The notes beneath the pieces are model-generated. The model did no database searches. It was not told the origin of the DNA and was given only the letters and a program-made list of their open reading frames with translations. This document shows positions 33,010 through 38,036 of a stretch of 64,000 bases of DNA, piece by piece. The position numbers were made by a program, and so were the translations under genes. Each line of letters opens with the position of its first letter. Position 1 is the stretch's first letter. This stretch comes from Rhizobiaceae bacterium (GTDB taxonomy: Bacteria > Pseudomonadota > Alphaproteobacteria > Rhizobiales > Rhizobiaceae), in contig JAHBYU010000015.1 of assembly GCA_019635775.1 (NCBI GenBank), positions 57,168 to 121,167 on the forward strand, in the 5' to 3' direction.

Positions 33010-36000
33010 TTATTCCGCCAGGACGCGCGTGGATGGAAACGCGATTTCGACCATCGTCCCTTCGCCGGGCGTTGAATGGATCGAGAATTTCGCGCGGTTC
33101 GCCTCCACCATCGCCTTGGTCAGGGGCAGGCCGAGGCCGGTCCCGTCGCCGCGCCGGCGTTGCAGCGAGTTGATCTGCTTGAAGGGCTTCAGTGCCTGCT
33201 CGATCTCGCCGGGCGTCATGCCGATGCCGGTGTCGCGCACGCGCATCACCACCTCGCCGTGTGACTCGTAGGCCGTGGATACGATCACCTGTCCGCCGGC
33301 CTGCGTATAGCGCACGGCGTTGGAAAGGATGTTGAGCGCGATCTGCCGGACGCTGCGCAGATCGGCGACCACGTCGGGCAGCTTGGAGGCGAAGCTGGAA
33401 CGAATGATGACACGTTCCCGGTTGGCCTGCGGCTGCATCAGCGCGACCGTCTCGGCAAGCGCCTCGTTCAGCGACACCGCCTCATAGCTCATGTCCTGCT
33501 GGCCAGCCTCGATCTTGGAGATGTCGAGCAGGTCGTTGACGAGGTCGAGCACATGATTGCCCGAACGGTTGATGTCGCGCAGATAGTCCCTGTAGCGGTC
33601 GTTCGCGACCGGCCCGAATTTTTCGTCCAGCATCAGTTCCGAGAAGCCGATGATGGCGTTGAGGGGCGTGCGGATCTCATGGCTGACGCGCGCGAGGAAT
33701 TCGCTCTTGTGCGACGAAGCGCGCTCTGCCGTCGAGCGGGCCTGCGTGAGTTCCTCCTCGGCGCGCTTCCACTGCGTGATATCGCGCACCACGGCGCAGA
33801 ACCCGCTGTCTCCGGGCAGCTTGCCAAGCGTCATGAAGAGCGGGATGAAACGCCCCTCTGCCTCGCGCCCGATCACCTCGCGCCCGTCATTGAGCACGCT
33901 GGCTACACCATGCTCGGTCAGGCCCGCAAGATAGTCGCGCGCTGCCTTCTGGCTTTCGATCGCGAACAGCGAACTGAATGGCTTGCCGGCAACTTCGTCG
34001 CTGTCAGCTCCAAACAGCGCTTCTGCGGGACGGCTGATCGAACGGATGTTGCCTTCGCTGGAAATGAGCACGACGCCATCGGTCGCCGTGTCGATGATCG
34101 TGCGCATCTCGGCCACGCGGGCCTCCAGTTCCGCGATCAGCGGCGACTGGCCAGCGCCCGCTCCGTCGCGTATGCGCGACAACACCAGCACGAGAGCCTT
34201 GCCGTTTTCCCAAGGGATGGATTGGAGGAACGCCTCCACCGGAAATTCCTGGCCGGCCTTGGTCGTCAGCCGCATGTGGCGATCGCTCTTGCCGCGTGCG
34301 TCCTGATCCTGCTCGTCTTCGTAGGAGTCGACAAAAAGCGCCCCGATGCCTCCGGCCTCGGCCAGTTCGTCGGTCGAGGCATAGCCCGTCAGGGCGAAGA
34401 ACTCGTCATTGGCGTAGTGGAGCGTATCGCCCGAGTGCACGAGGACAGGCACCGGCAATTTTTCAAGGATGGAAAGGCCGGCATCGGCCTTCGCTCTCGC
34501 GACGTCCTGGGCGGCGCCTTTCTCTGATGCTTCGAGGGCTTTCTCGGTCGCAGGCTCGATCGGCTCGAAGTCGGTTTCGGCGAAAACGGTGCCATCGTCC
34601 TCAAGACTTGTCTCCATGAGGACGGCATCGGGATCGCTCGGCGTTTCGCCCGCCGGTTGGGCGTCTTCACCCGCCACGACGCCAGCCTCGACCAGCGGTT
34701 CCTCGGCACCACCCTCGGCTGACGGCGCCTCTGCTTCGTGCGCCTCGCTGCTGATTGGCTGGTCAGGCTCGGATTCGCCGGCCGGTGCCGCGGGCTCCTC
34801 GGTCTTCTCCTTGGTGAAGTCGAGCAATGACATGCCCGGCCGCGAACGCACTTGCTTGGTCTCGACCGGAACGGCGGCCTCGGGGCTGGCGGGAGCGGGG
34901 GCCGCGTCCTCGGTCGAACCTGTCGTGGCATCGACCCTGTCGTCACTGTCGGCCCCGTCGAGCGCGCGCAGTTCGGCGACGTTTTCGTTGTCGTGCTCCG
35001 CAGGTTCCGGCTCTGGAAGACCGTTCGCTTCAGGCATCGCCTCGGCGATCGCAGGCATGTCGTCCTGGCCGGTGAGCGGAGTGTCAGTTGCCGAACCGGC
35101 TTCCGCTTTTGGGGCGGCTTCCTCGTCCGTCGGGGACGCGGTTACGTTTGCCGTGCCGTCCGGTTTGCCCTTGCGGCTTTCGCGCCTCAGCCTTTCACCG
35201 ATCTGCTGGAACGCGATACGTTCGCCGGCCGACAATCCCTTTTCATTTGAAGGGTCAGCTTCGCGCGCCGGTGCGGGCGAGCGGTGTTCTGCAAGCCGTA
35301 TGATCTTGTCCGACTGGCGCCGGTCGGGGACTGGCGTCACCGAAAGCGCCGGCGTCTCGCCCCGGAACTGGTCTTCTTCCTCCGCCCTTTCCCCCGTGGC
35401 CGAGCTGGTGGCGTCTGCAACCGGGACATCCGGCTGAGCAGGTGCTTCCTGCAAGTTGCCTGCGGTCGCCTGTTCGGCGGCTGGGCTCGTCTCCGTCAAT
35501 GGAATGAGGGGCAGGGCGAGCCCGGTGCCGGCGGGATCGATGGCTGCGTCGGCGATCCTCGCCACGCCAAAACCGCGAAATCCCTGAAAGTCCCTGTTGC
35601 GGTCATAGACCGGCAGTGCCGCAAGGTCGACCGGAGCCCTCAGGTCGGTTTCGGCGATGGGCCATGACACGGTACGTCCAGACCACGTATCGCGTTGCTC
35701 CAGCAGGCCTGCGACCTCGCCGGTGGGATCGAGCCCGAAAGCCTTTGCCACGTCCTGGAAACTGCGCCCGATGATGTCCGCGGCGGGCTTGCCTACGGCC
35801 TCGACGAATTCGGTCGAGAGCTGGCTGAAGCGCCCCTGGGCGTCAGTCCGCCAGACGAACCGGACTGGACCGGTCGGCCTTGCGGTGGGTGGAGCCGGTT
35901 CGTCGGCAACGTTGGGCTCGTCGGCAGCGAGTGTCTCCGCAGGCACGAGCGCGGCATCCGGTGCAGGCTCGTCTTCGTCCTCCTCGTCAACCTCGTCCTG

Positions 36001-36867
36001 GTGTTCTGCGGCTACCTCCTCCGCTTCGACCTCTTCGATGCTGGCCGGGACTTCCTCGACCTTGGCGACGGAGGGTTCAACGGCTGCCAGATCACCTTCG
36101 GCGTCGTCATCGTCCTCGTCGGCGGGTGCGAACGCCTCGCTGCCCAGATGCCAGACCTCGCGCTGCGGCTCCACCAGCATGTCGGGCGTTTCGTCCAGGC
36201 TTTCGTCCTGCTCGTTTGCCCAGTTCTCGACAACGACGACGACGAGGTTCCTGCTTTCCGTCAGCCTCCCCAACCCCGCCGGCAGCGGGCCGCGGGGGGA
36301 GGGGATCATGCGCTTCACGACGCGGACGTCGTCGTTCCCGTCAGCGGCGAGCGCCGCCAGCGCCTCGTCTGTCAGCCGCAGCCGCGCAAAGCCCGGTGAG
36401 GCCGCCTCGACCTTGCCCGCGCCGTCGACCAGCGCAAGGAAATGTCCCGGTTGCGAAAAGCCGCCGATGGCGGCGGCGAGCGCTTCGGCCTGTCGTTCCG
36501 CGACGGCTGGCTGCGCCAGCAGGATCGCCGCCTCGCCGTCGGGCAGGGTCACTGCGCTGGCAAGGAACCGCAGCGCATCGCTCGACATGCCGAGCGTGAT
36601 TCGTACGAGAAGCGGTCTGTCGCGCCCGATCGCCGGAAAACCGCGAAGCGCCGAGATCTGGCGCCTTGCGGCCGGCCCGAGCGGCGCCTGAGCGCCGAGG
36701 ATCGTCTCCACATCGTCATGGCCGAACAGCGCAGCGCCAGGTCCATTAGCCCAGATGACATCGGCCAGGTCGGTGGAAAGGATGACGAGTGCATCGCCGG
36801 AGGCGAAACGCGTCCGCACGTCTTCCAGCGCTGCGACATCGAGGAATGAATAGGACGACTGCGCCAT
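33010..36867 (-). CDS. cbrA: Multi-PAS sensor histidine kinase, CbrA/PdhS-like
   Basis: A 1285-residue cytoplasmic kinase without membrane segments. PAS-like domains lie near residues 335-430, 795-900 and 920-1030. The HisKA domain contains His1063 (HEIRTPLNAIIGFSE), followed by the ATPase N box (NILSNAVRYT), G1 (DTGIGM) and G2 (GTGLGL). Roughly residues 215-330 and 440-790 are acidic, Ala/Glu/Pro-rich linkers. In Sinorhizobium CbrA sits beside a phasin gene as here and acts upstream of DivK/CtrA in cell-cycle control. The ATG at 36867 has a GGGAG site. It could also be named PdhS. Confidence 0.83.
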   Translation of the reverse strand: MAQSSYSFLDVAALEDVRTRFASGDALVILSTDLADVIWANGPGAALFGHDDVETILGAQAPLGPAARRQISALRGFPAIGRDRPLLVRITLGMSSDALRFLASAVTLPDGEAAILLAQPAVAERQAEALAAAIGGFSQPGHFLALVDGAGKVEAASPGFARLRLTDEALAALAADGNDDVRVVKRMIPSPRGPLPAGLGRLTESRNLVVVVVENWANEQDESLDETPDMLVEPQREVWHLGSEAFAPADEDDDDAEGDLAAVEPSVAKVEEVPASIEEVEAEEVAAEHQDEVDEEDEDEPAPDAALVPAETLAADEPNVADEPAPPTARPTGPVRFVWRTDAQGRFSQLSTEFVEAVGKPAADIIGRSFQDVAKAFGLDPTGEVAGLLEQRDTWSGRTVSWPIAETDLRAPVDLAALPVYDRNRDFQGFRGFGVARIADAAIDPAGTGLALPLIPLTETSPAAEQATAGNLQEAPAQPDVPVADATSSATGERAEEEDQFRGETPALSVTPVPDRRQSDKIIRLAEHRSPAPAREADPSNEKGLSAGERIAFQQIGERLRRESRKGKPDGTANVTASPTDEEAAPKAEAGSATDTPLTGQDDMPAIAEAMPEANGLPEPEPAEHDNENVAELRALDGADSDDRVDATTGSTEDAAPAPASPEAAVPVETKQVRSRPGMSLLDFTKEKTEEPAAPAGESEPDQPISSEAHEAEAPSAEGGAEEPLVEAGVVAGEDAQPAGETPSDPDAVLMETSLEDDGTVFAETDFEPIEPATEKALEASEKGAAQDVARAKADAGLSILEKLPVPVLVHSGDTLHYANDEFFALTGYASTDELAEAGGIGALFVDSYEDEQDQDARGKSDRHMRLTTKAGQEFPVEAFLQSIPWENGKALVLVLSRIRDGAGAGQSPLIAELEARVAEMRTIIDTATDGVVLISSEGNIRSISRPAEALFGADSDEVAGKPFSSLFAIESQKAARDYLAGLTEHGVASVLNDGREVIGREAEGRFIPLFMTLGKLPGDSGFCAVVRDITQWKRAEEELTQARSTAERASSHKSEFLARVSHEIRTPLNAIIGFSELMLDEKFGPVANDRYRDYLRDINRSGNHVLDLVNDLLDISKIEAGQQDMSYEAVSLNEALAETVALMQPQANRERVIIRSSFASKLPDVVADLRSVRQIALNILSNAVRYTQAGGQVIVSTAYESHGEVVMRVRDTGIGMTPGEIEQALKPFKQINSLQRRRGDGTGLGLPLTKAMVEANRAKFSIHSTPGEGTMVEIAFPSTRVLAE

Positions 36868-36985: not shown

Positions 36986-37066
36986 TTGCAATGCGGCAAT
37001 TTCACGGTTTGGTTAATGTTTACAGGGATTTATGGTGCATCGCACAAAAAATGTTGCACTGCACAA
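36986..37066. promoter_or_regulatory. TGC/GCA-rich repeats upstream of the phasin gene, PhaR-type sites
   Basis: Three related elements precede the phasin gene: TTGCAATGCGGCAA (36986-36999), TGCATCGCACAA (37036-37047) and TGCACTGCACAA (37055-37066). The last two match at 10 of 12 positions. PhaR, the polyhydroxybutyrate-responsive repressor, binds TGC-rich sites in front of phasin genes in other alphaproteobacteria, so autoregulated phasin expression is likely. No phaR gene is in the window. Confidence 0.5.
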
Positions 37067-37148
37067 GGAAATCGCCTATATCAGCACCATCGTGAACGAG
37101 ACGGCCACCGCCACCGGCAGGCAGGCCGCAATAGCAAAGGACAGGAAA

Positions 37149-37616
37149 ATGGCCAAGACGGCAGAGAAAACAGCAGCAGAATTCATGGAAAACATCGAGT
37201 TTCCGAGCTTCGACGCCACCAAGGCGACCGACCAGTTCCGTGCCTTCGCCGAGAAGGGCGTCGAGCAGTCGAAGGAAGCCTACGCCAAGATGAAGAGCGG
37301 CGCAGAAGAGACCCAGAAGGCGCTCGAATCCACCTTCGAGAACGCCAAGGCCGTTTCGGGCGACCTGTCGCTCAAGACCATCTCCGCCTTCCGCGACAAC
37401 GCCGAGGCCGGTTTCGCCCATCTCGAGGCCCTGCTTGGCGCCAAGACGCTGGCCGAGGTTGTCGAGCTGCAGACCTCCTTCCTGCGCAAGCGCGTCGAAG
37501 CCGGCGTCGAGCAGGCGAAGGACTTCCAGGCCGCCGCCAGCAAGGCCGCCGAGAAGGTTTCCACGCCGATGAAGAGCGTCTTCGAGAAGGCCGTGAAGGA
37601 ACTGAAGGTCGCCTGA
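37149..37616 (+). CDS. phaP: Phasin (PHB granule-associated protein)
   Basis: A 155-residue helical protein of the phasin family that coats polyhydroxybutyrate granules. The sequence is amphipathic and Lys/Glu/Ala-rich, with FRAFAEKGVEQSKEAYAKMK and LQTSFLRKRVEAGVEQAKDF typical of alphaproteobacterial phasins. The ATG at 37149 follows an ACAGGAAA site; an in-frame start at 37032 would overlap the putative PhaR sites. It is divergent from the CbrA-like kinase gene. The 3' end runs into a triple-hairpin element with anti-Shine-Dalgarno loops. Confidence 0.92.
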   Translation: MAKTAEKTAAEFMENIEFPSFDATKATDQFRAFAEKGVEQSKEAYAKMKSGAEETQKALESTFENAKAVSGDLSLKTISAFRDNAEAGFAHLEALLGAKTLAEVVELQTSFLRKRVEAGVEQAKDFQAAASKAAEKVSTPMKSVFEKAVKELKVA

Positions 37617-37624
37617 TCTTCAAG

Positions 37625-37737
37625 CGAATACCGGAAGGCGGCACCTCCTCCCGCTTCCTTCCGGAGTAAGCCGGCACCTCCTCCCGCCGGCGTGTAAAAG
37701 GAAAAGGCCGGGATCTCCTCCCCCCGGCCTTTTTCTT
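37625..37737 (+). ncRNA. Triple-hairpin RNA with CCUCCUCCC loops (cuckoo/CcsR-like) in the phasin 3' region
   Basis: Three consecutive hairpins follow the phasin stop. Stem 1: CCGGAAGG (37631-37638) with CCTTCCGG (37657-37664). Stem 2: GCCGGC (37670-37675) with GCCGGC (37686-37691). Stem 3: AAAAGGCCGGG (37702-37712) with CCCGGCCTTTT (37723-37733), followed by a T-tract. Loops 1 and 2 contain CCTCCTCCC (37644-37652 and 37677-37685); loop 3 has TCTCCTCCC. Repeated CCUCCUCCC loops define the alphaproteobacterial cuckoo/CcsR sRNAs, which are often processed from 3' ends of mRNAs. Release from the phasin mRNA is inferred. Confidence 0.72.
37702..37737 (+). terminator. Intrinsic terminator of the phasin transcript
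   Basis: An 11-bp stem (AAAAGGCCGGG with CCCGGCCTTTT) with a ten-base loop is followed by a run reading TTTTCTTT overlapping the stem end. It ends the phasin message and is the third hairpin of the putative sRNA. Confidence 0.85.
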
Positions 37738-37959
37738 TGCCTGTTTCATCCGCCTGCCTTCCGCCAGTTCGCGTTCCGAACGGCTGCGTCGGGCCGGACC
37801 TGCCCGCGTGAGCGCCCTTCGCGGGCGAGGGTGCGCAAACACGCCGCACCGGCCTGTGGCCTGGAAACTGCCGGTTGGATCGCGGACGGGCTTGAATTAA
37901 AATGCGTTAGCCCGTATGCACCGCTCGCTGACAGGCGAGCCGCCTTGCGGGCGGCCGAT

Positions 37960-38036
37960 GCCGTTGTAGCTCAGTTGGTTAGAGCGCCGGATTGTGGATC
38001 CGGAGGTCGCTGGTTCGAGCCCAGCCAACGGTACCA
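37960..38036 (+). tRNA. tRNA-His (GTG)
   Basis: A complete 77-base tRNA with encoded CCA. The anticodon stem CCGGA/TCCGG flanks a loop with GTG, and the T-arm contains GGTTCGAGC. The acceptor stem GCCGTTG pairs with CAACGGT, so position 1 is G opposite U72, and the discriminator is A73. The base before the gene is T, so no G-1 is encoded. Loss of G-1 with U72/A73 is a known alphaproteobacterial feature of tRNA-His. Confidence 0.97.

Follow-up and report, generated by a model that had tools for sequence, protein, structure and literature searches.

The three hairpins that directly follow the phasin gene phaP in this Rhizobiaceae genome raise the question of whether they form a small RNA, to which family such an RNA would belong, and what sets its level. 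We consider it likely that they constitute an anti-Shine-Dalgarno sRNA of the ar14 family, which derives from the 3'UTR of phaP1 and stands under the control of PhaR. Positions refer to the window, i.e., the whole 64,000-nucleotide stretch of DNA that was analysed, and PMC articles are cited here from excerpts. The features of the locus are the following.

37030..37050, plus strand: distal PhaR (AniA) operator-like site TTATGGTGCATCGCACAAAAA (weight matrix, 26.7 bits)
37049..37069, plus strand: proximal PhaR operator-like site AAATGTTGCACTGCACAAGGA, overlapping the putative -35 element (weight matrix, 21.2 bits)
37053..37081, plus strand: putative phaP promoter, -35 at 37053-37059 and -10 CTATAT at 37076-37081 (9/12 to CTTGAC-N16/17-CTATAT)
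37149..37616, plus strand: phaP (phaP1-type phasin), 155 aa, ribosome site AAAGGACAGG (PF09361, TIGR01985, alignment)
37626..37738, plus strand: ar14/cuckoo-family RNA in the phaP 3'UTR (RF02344, 68 bits, full length)
37626..37632, plus strand: GAATACC leader adjoining stem 1, possible cleavage site
37631..37664, plus strand: hairpin 1, loop CCTCCTCCC at 37644-37652 (fold; double changes in 7/9 pairs of helix 1)
37670..37691, plus strand: hairpin 2, loop CCTCCTCCC at 37677-37685 (fold; double changes in 4/7 pairs)
37697..37738, plus strand: hairpin 3, loop TCTCCTCCC at 37714-37722, likely intrinsic terminator (fold; double changes in 3/14 pairs)

The initial annotation had described three stems with anti-Shine-Dalgarno loops behind phaP and assigned them to the cuckoo/CcsR type, and the fold, the unpaired loops and the covariance model bear out both statements. 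The Rfam model RF02344 (ar14) matches over its entire length (model positions 1-123 of 123) with 68 bits against a cut-off of 58.8 (E 3.8e-10), which delimits an RNA of 113 bases with the phaP stop codon nine bases upstream; ar14 and tRNA are the only Rfam families that reach the cut-off in the window. The segment 37600-37760 has a minimum free energy of -68.2 kcal/mol, compared with -48.65 +/- 3.56 for shuffled sequences (z -5.5), and the mean unpaired probability of the loop bases is 0.99-1.00 in all three hairpins, so the third loop, which has UCUCCUCCC where the other two have the exact CCUCCUCCC, is unpaired as well. The word CCTCCTCCC occurs twice in the 64 kb (0.58 expected), and two occurrences are reached in 10 of 100 shuffles; the word count alone is therefore unconvincing, and it is the fold z-score, the ar14 model score and the comparative data that are convincing. 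Hairpin 3 and the T run after it look like the terminator of the phaP transcript, so that the last stem likely has the terminator role first proposed for it. A simple terminator scan reported none at hairpin 3, probably because its loop of 10 lies beyond the 3-8 bases that the scan permits.

Conservation of the loops behind phaP among relatives had been suggested as a test, and it proved strong. We searched the genome itself and 60 relatives for ar14 and for phasins, and paired the two match tables. In 12 of these 61 genomes ar14 lies 46-69 nt behind a phasin domain, always on the same strand, with 10 of the 12 matches exceeding the Rfam cut-off and two falling below it; the 24 genomes outside the family contain no such pair. 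A tree was built from 69 phasin loci of 37 genomes of the family, and the 220 bases 3' of each stop were inspected. The 12 linked phasins, together with two that have degenerate loops (L124 and L135), form one clade (support 100/99), referred to here as the nest clade, and the fork that unites it with its sister clade has a support of only 92/77. At least two CCTCC words are present in the phaP1 tail in 14/14 members of the nest clade and 0/10 of the sister clade, and at least one CTCCTCCC in 12/14 and 0/10 respectively; two sister-clade loci (L078 and L089) have one CCTCC each. Among the remaining 45 phasin loci, two CCTCC words occur in one (L090) and CTCCTCCC in one (L087). The 14 nest-clade genomes span 11 genera, and in five of the 14 copies (L098, L107, L115, L124 and L135) the loops are reduced in number or altered. 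L087 (G013) is a long-branch phasin outside the nest clade, followed by one CTCCTCCC hairpin and then a plain terminator, and is possibly an independent start of a nest.

Besides this broad set, we collected named loci, the best 80 of 185 relatives, which are mostly Mesorhizobium (including M. ciceri WSM1271, M. loti, and M. huakuii) and lean to close kin. Three TCCTCCC loops lie within 200 bases of the stop in 79 of these 80 loci, and three exact CCTCCTCCC in 77; the exception is L177, in which the contig ends 56 bases past the stop. The phaP1 tails of M. ciceri and M. huakuii match ar14 with 74.5 and 72.6 bits respectively, and, when four named nest loci were compared with Rfam, L159 and L181 passed the ar14 cut-off and L210 and L226 had no match at the cut-off. 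A tRNA-His gene (37960-38036) comes after the phaP1-ar14 unit in the window, as it does in 7/7 named loci scanned. We also considered MH_s15 of M. huakuii 7653R (204 nt, abundant, located between two minus-strand genes; PMC5596092, in excerpt) as the same RNA, and rejected it: phaP1 of WSM1271 lies across the RNase P and tmRNA genes from the place of MH_s15 in 7653R, so that the two are probably different, an exclusion that is not final, the gene order at phaP1, RNase P and tmRNA being different in the other two complete genomes.

What, then, sets the level of the RNA? The phaP product scores 49.8 bits with Phasin_2 (PF09361) and 129.4 bits with NCBIfam TIGR01985, and translation most likely begins at 37149, which gives 155 aa, and less likely at 37032. 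Divergent to it, on the minus strand (33010-36867), runs a frame of 1285 aa that by eye resembles a PAS-domain sensor histidine kinase. In S. meliloti, PhaR binds boxes in the phaP1 promoter and PHB lifts the repression (PMC12542648). With a weight matrix made from eight published S. meliloti sites (PMC12542648), exactly two sites of at least 12 bits were found in the 64-kb window, at 37030 and 37049, both of them in the phaP promoter, an arrangement like that of phaP1 and phaP2 in the PhaR/AniA regulon of S. meliloti (PMC12542648). The genome also contains a PhaR gene (PF07879, 102.7 bits), and the link to PHB that the initial annotation had drawn gains support from this gene and the two operator-like sites. 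At least one PhaR-like site is present in 24/24 phaP1 promoters of the nest and sister clades and at least two in 23/24, and at least two are present in 79/79 named loci counted (L222, in which the start is misplaced, is left out of the promoter and ribosome-site counts). As the PhaR-like sites are common to both clades, PhaR control of phaP1 probably predates the tail RNA. From these sequences we infer that PhaR may control ar14 as well.

This reading assumes that the RNA is transcribed with phaP1. Between the phaP 3' end and the RNA, the best promoter-like match in the window is 7/12, a score that occurs 1345 times on the plus strand of the window, compared with 9/12 for the phaP promoter; with no good promoter in between, the RNA should track phaP1 transcription. 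We regard it as unlikely that the RNA is made mainly from a promoter of its own, in or just behind phaP1, such that phaP1 transcription would not set its level. The case for such a promoter comes from Mesorhizobium. The spacer from stop to RNA is about 80 nt in 72 of 79 named loci, compared with 15-36 nt otherwise, and in 71 of the 72 long-spacer loci a TGC-N11-GCA block lies 58-62 nt before the RNA. This word is rare (one occurrence in 36.7 kb of phaP1 coding sequence) and is built like the NtrC site of PnfeR1 (PMC10746234), so the block could mark a second promoter in Mesorhizobium. However, it is missing in 7/7 short-spacer loci, and in the window, in which the RNA begins nine bases past the stop, the 7/12 match is the best on offer. 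The segment 37301-37640 contains neither a TGC-N11-GCA nor a TGCA-N6-GCA word, and thus lacks the LsrB box TGCA-N6-GCAT of the NfeR1 promoter. As an observation in its own right, the block in the 72 long-spacer loci (within L151-L225) may be an NtrC-like operator, part of a promoter, or an RNA hairpin.

The pattern of change within the RNA bears on how it may act. We aligned 23 three-loop phaP-linked copies picked for diversity, and counted pairs without the partial copies. The RNAalifold structure has 30 pairs, 14 of which show changes on both sides, and 97.1% of the cells pair, compared with 37-67% when the partners are shifted by 1-3 columns. The covariation score, the percentage paired and the double-change counts were matched by 0/500 shuffles, and the number of pair types by 16/500. 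The loop columns are mostly invariant across the 23 copies. Covarying stems with near-constant loops are the pattern of an RNA that acts through its loops. It is accordingly distinctly improbable that the hairpins serve in cis only, ending the phaP1 mRNA and stabilising it at the 3' side, while their loops have no function in trans. Hairpin 3 is indeed a good terminator, and many sister-clade phaP1 genes have, by eye, a plain GC hairpin and T run at this place, but a stabiliser requires stems and no fixed loop word, whereas here the stems vary and the loops barely do, and the same loops occur in family members that have a different host gene or lack one. That the loops bind protein instead of mRNAs, the 3'UTR serving a DUF1127 protein of the CcaF1 type as sponge or processing platform, is very improbable even though a DUF1127-like frame precedes 35 of the 104 family loci classified and CcaF1 has a part in CcsR maturation (PMC10253847), for the host gene here is a phasin, and NfeR1 mutated in its three loops no longer lowers an ntrB reporter (PMC10746234), so that pairing accounts for the loop word.

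For the trans-acting, PhaR-controlled RNA that we favour, we propose the following course. PhaR would repress the phaP1 promoter until PHB granules draw it off, upon which the phaP1-ar14 transcript would rise. Transcription would end at hairpin 3, and an endonuclease, probably RNase E as judged from CcsR, would cut near GAATACC ahead of stem 1 and release an RNA of about 110 nt. The cut site is a guess, as GAATACC is not a clean RNWUU site, RNWUU being the cleavage consensus. Of the 79 named loci that could be read here, 78 have an NNATAC word in the 30 nt ahead of the first loop core, and in 56 this word is GAATAC. The exposed CCUCCUCCC loops may then pair with the GGAGG-type ribosome sites of other mRNAs, in analogy to NfeR1, the anti-Shine-Dalgarno loops of which silence ntrB and transporter mRNAs (PMC10746234, PMC7143759). 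The effect would be that uptake and nitrogen functions are lowered while carbon is stored, and the phaP1 mRNA itself would be spared.

The sequence of its ribosome site, AAGGA without GGAG, suggests that phaP1 is a poor target of its own RNA. GGAG lies no more than 20 nt from the phaP1 start in 2/14 nest-clade genomes and 0/79 named loci, compared with 9/10 in the sister clade, and the mean duplex energies differ modestly (nest -6.2, sister -7.7). Based on a single tree split, with no genome-wide baseline, it is suggestive that an mRNA with an anti-GGAGG tail RNA would gain by dropping GGAG. As to other mRNAs, the genome contains 16 instances of GGAGGAGG-N4-9-ATG, compared with six of a reversed control word, and 15 of the 16 words open into a frame of at least 50 aa. 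Several of them seem to be gene-internal, and the set is too mixed for targets to be named.

The RNA itself is not new, since the ar14 family, with three and four CCUCCUCCC hairpins, was described in 2011 (PMC3927594). The phaP-tail RNA is like the members of ar14/RF02344, including NfeR1 (SmelC397), SmelA075 and SmelA099, in its CCUCCUCCC loop hairpins and variable stems. Unlike NfeR1, which has its own promoter controlled by LsrB and NtrC (PMC10746234), it is part of the phaP1 transcript, with PhaR-like sites. It resembles CcsR1-4 (CIN1) of Rhodobacter sphaeroides in that the family loops lie inside the 3'UTR of a protein gene, in that case ccaF1, from which CcsR1-4 are cut with RNase E (PMC8625941, PMC10253847); the cutting of family RNAs from mRNA 3' ends, to which the initial annotation appealed, thus has a precedent. 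The hosts differ, in that CcsR1-4 belong to a DUF1127 gene under RpoHI/HII and the phaP-tail RNA to a phasin gene. The CcsR RNAs are presumably those listed elsewhere as RS0680a. RS0680a has two hairpins (PMC3927594), and the phaP-tail RNA three. A further likeness is to MmgR (ar8) of S. meliloti, a PHB-tied sRNA that is repressed by PhaR and lowers phasin protein (PMC8401924, PMC12542648). However, MmgR has its own promoter and belongs to another RNA family, and ar8 is not among the Rfam matches of the window at the cut-off.

The literature matches listed include no description of such an RNA at phaP, in agreement with the initial annotation, and no paper that places ar14 at phaP or under PhaR, although Reinkensmeier and Giegerich (2015) may list phasin-adjacent members. 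NfeR1 is not mentioned in the main text of PMC12542648, nor phasin in that of PMC3927594. Known, then, are the ar14 family and its 3'UTR-derived members, and new among the literature matches listed are the phasin nest and the PhaR link.

A PhaR link may extend beyond phaP1. The search gave 146 ar14 matches, of which 11 are other phaP1-linked copies, 31 were left out (below 40 bits, or less than 600 nt from one taken), and 104 were classified by their upstream context. Of these 104 loci, 35 lie behind a DUF1127-like frame, as CcsR does at CIN1, 18 are later tandem copies, one is the phaP1 copy of the window, and 50 are free-standing, the classes being set by a DUF1127 pattern such that L283, filed as free-standing, looks DUF1127-linked. 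A PhaR-like site of at least 18 bits is present within 220 bases of 16/50 free-standing copies, in 12/28 genomes (L240, L032, L231, L258, L008, L138, L233, L252, L009, L246, L011, L253, L013, L010, L229 and L256), compared with a mean of 0.035 and a maximum of one such site in shuffles of the free-standing upstream sequences. The sites are concentrated close to the RNA, with 16 starting in the -220 to 0 bin and seven everywhere else in these loci; as background, 133 kb of sequence flanking the 80 named loci contain three PhaR-like sites. In L246, L252, L253 and L256, the site starts at about -40, across the likely core promoter.

For the DUF1127-linked copies, a site is present within 500 bases in 15/35, in 14/27 genomes (L001, L012, L015, L016, L018, L019, L020, L022, L025, L031, L251, L273, L274, L280 and L139), compared with at most one in shuffles, and mostly at about -240 to -320, i.e., 5' of the DUF1127 gene. 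Within 220 nt upstream, a stretch that is mostly DUF1127 coding region, none was found in the 35 DUF1127-linked or the 18 tandem copies. Eleven of the 18 tandem copies have a site within 750 bases, counts that are not independent because of shared promoters. As a control, we examined the DUF1127 genes of five genomes, and called those with at least two CCTCC within 330 bases downstream tailed. A site of at least 18 bits in the 400 bases upstream is present in 6/8 tailed and 0/11 untailed genes (best 15.1 bits), which suggests that the site accompanies the ar14 tail and is not a feature of DUF1127 genes in general, although the tailed genes are at the same time the short, closely related ones.

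Taken by genome, 27 of the 40 genomes with classified copies have a phaP1 nest or an ar14 unit preceded by a PhaR-like site. In the genome of the window, PhaR-like sites lie at the phaP1 copy and at the DUF1127-linked tandem pair L001 and L002, and no site at 18 bits was found at the free-standing L003 or the weak L005. On pSymA of S. meliloti, no strong site was found within 220 nt of SmelA075 (ar14, 89.9 bits; site score 11.5 bits) or SmelA099 (ar14, 90 bits; site score 5.7 bits). The absence of a PhaR-like site from 34/50 free-standing and 20/35 DUF1127-linked copies speaks against a universal PhaR link, and the sites that are present could be those of a different regulator that recognises the same palindrome. 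Just short of an even chance, in our judgement, is the wider reading that in Rhizobiaceae the PHB sensor PhaR governs an anti-Shine-Dalgarno brake by way of phaP1-nested, DUF1127-linked and free-standing ar14, from which the GGAG-less phaP1 escapes. Here the phaP1-3'UTR arrangement would be that of the Mesorhizobium-side clade.

If true, a single transcript would give both a granule coat protein and a tail RNA with a damping effect on other mRNAs. Nutrient uptake and nitrogen control would thereby be reset directly by carbon storage, and several gene arrangements would connect the PHB sensor with an sRNA family that is already known. A large and hitherto unlinked set of sRNAs could then be tested with one regulator mutant, and Mesorhizobium would gain a testable regulator. 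Should phaP1 of S. meliloti belong to the sister clade, this would also explain why work on S. meliloti did not encounter the nest.

Two further observations concern the family at large. L136, in a reduced 1.1-Mb genome of the same family (G009), has an ar14 match of 61.7 bits, a lead only; for Liberibacter, the excerpted text of PMC3927594 lists no member of its wider families. Groups of four or five adjacent ar14-like matches are present in G026 (contig C12), G023 (contig C23) and G030 (contig C45), and the group in G023 starts behind a DUF1127-like frame (L273).
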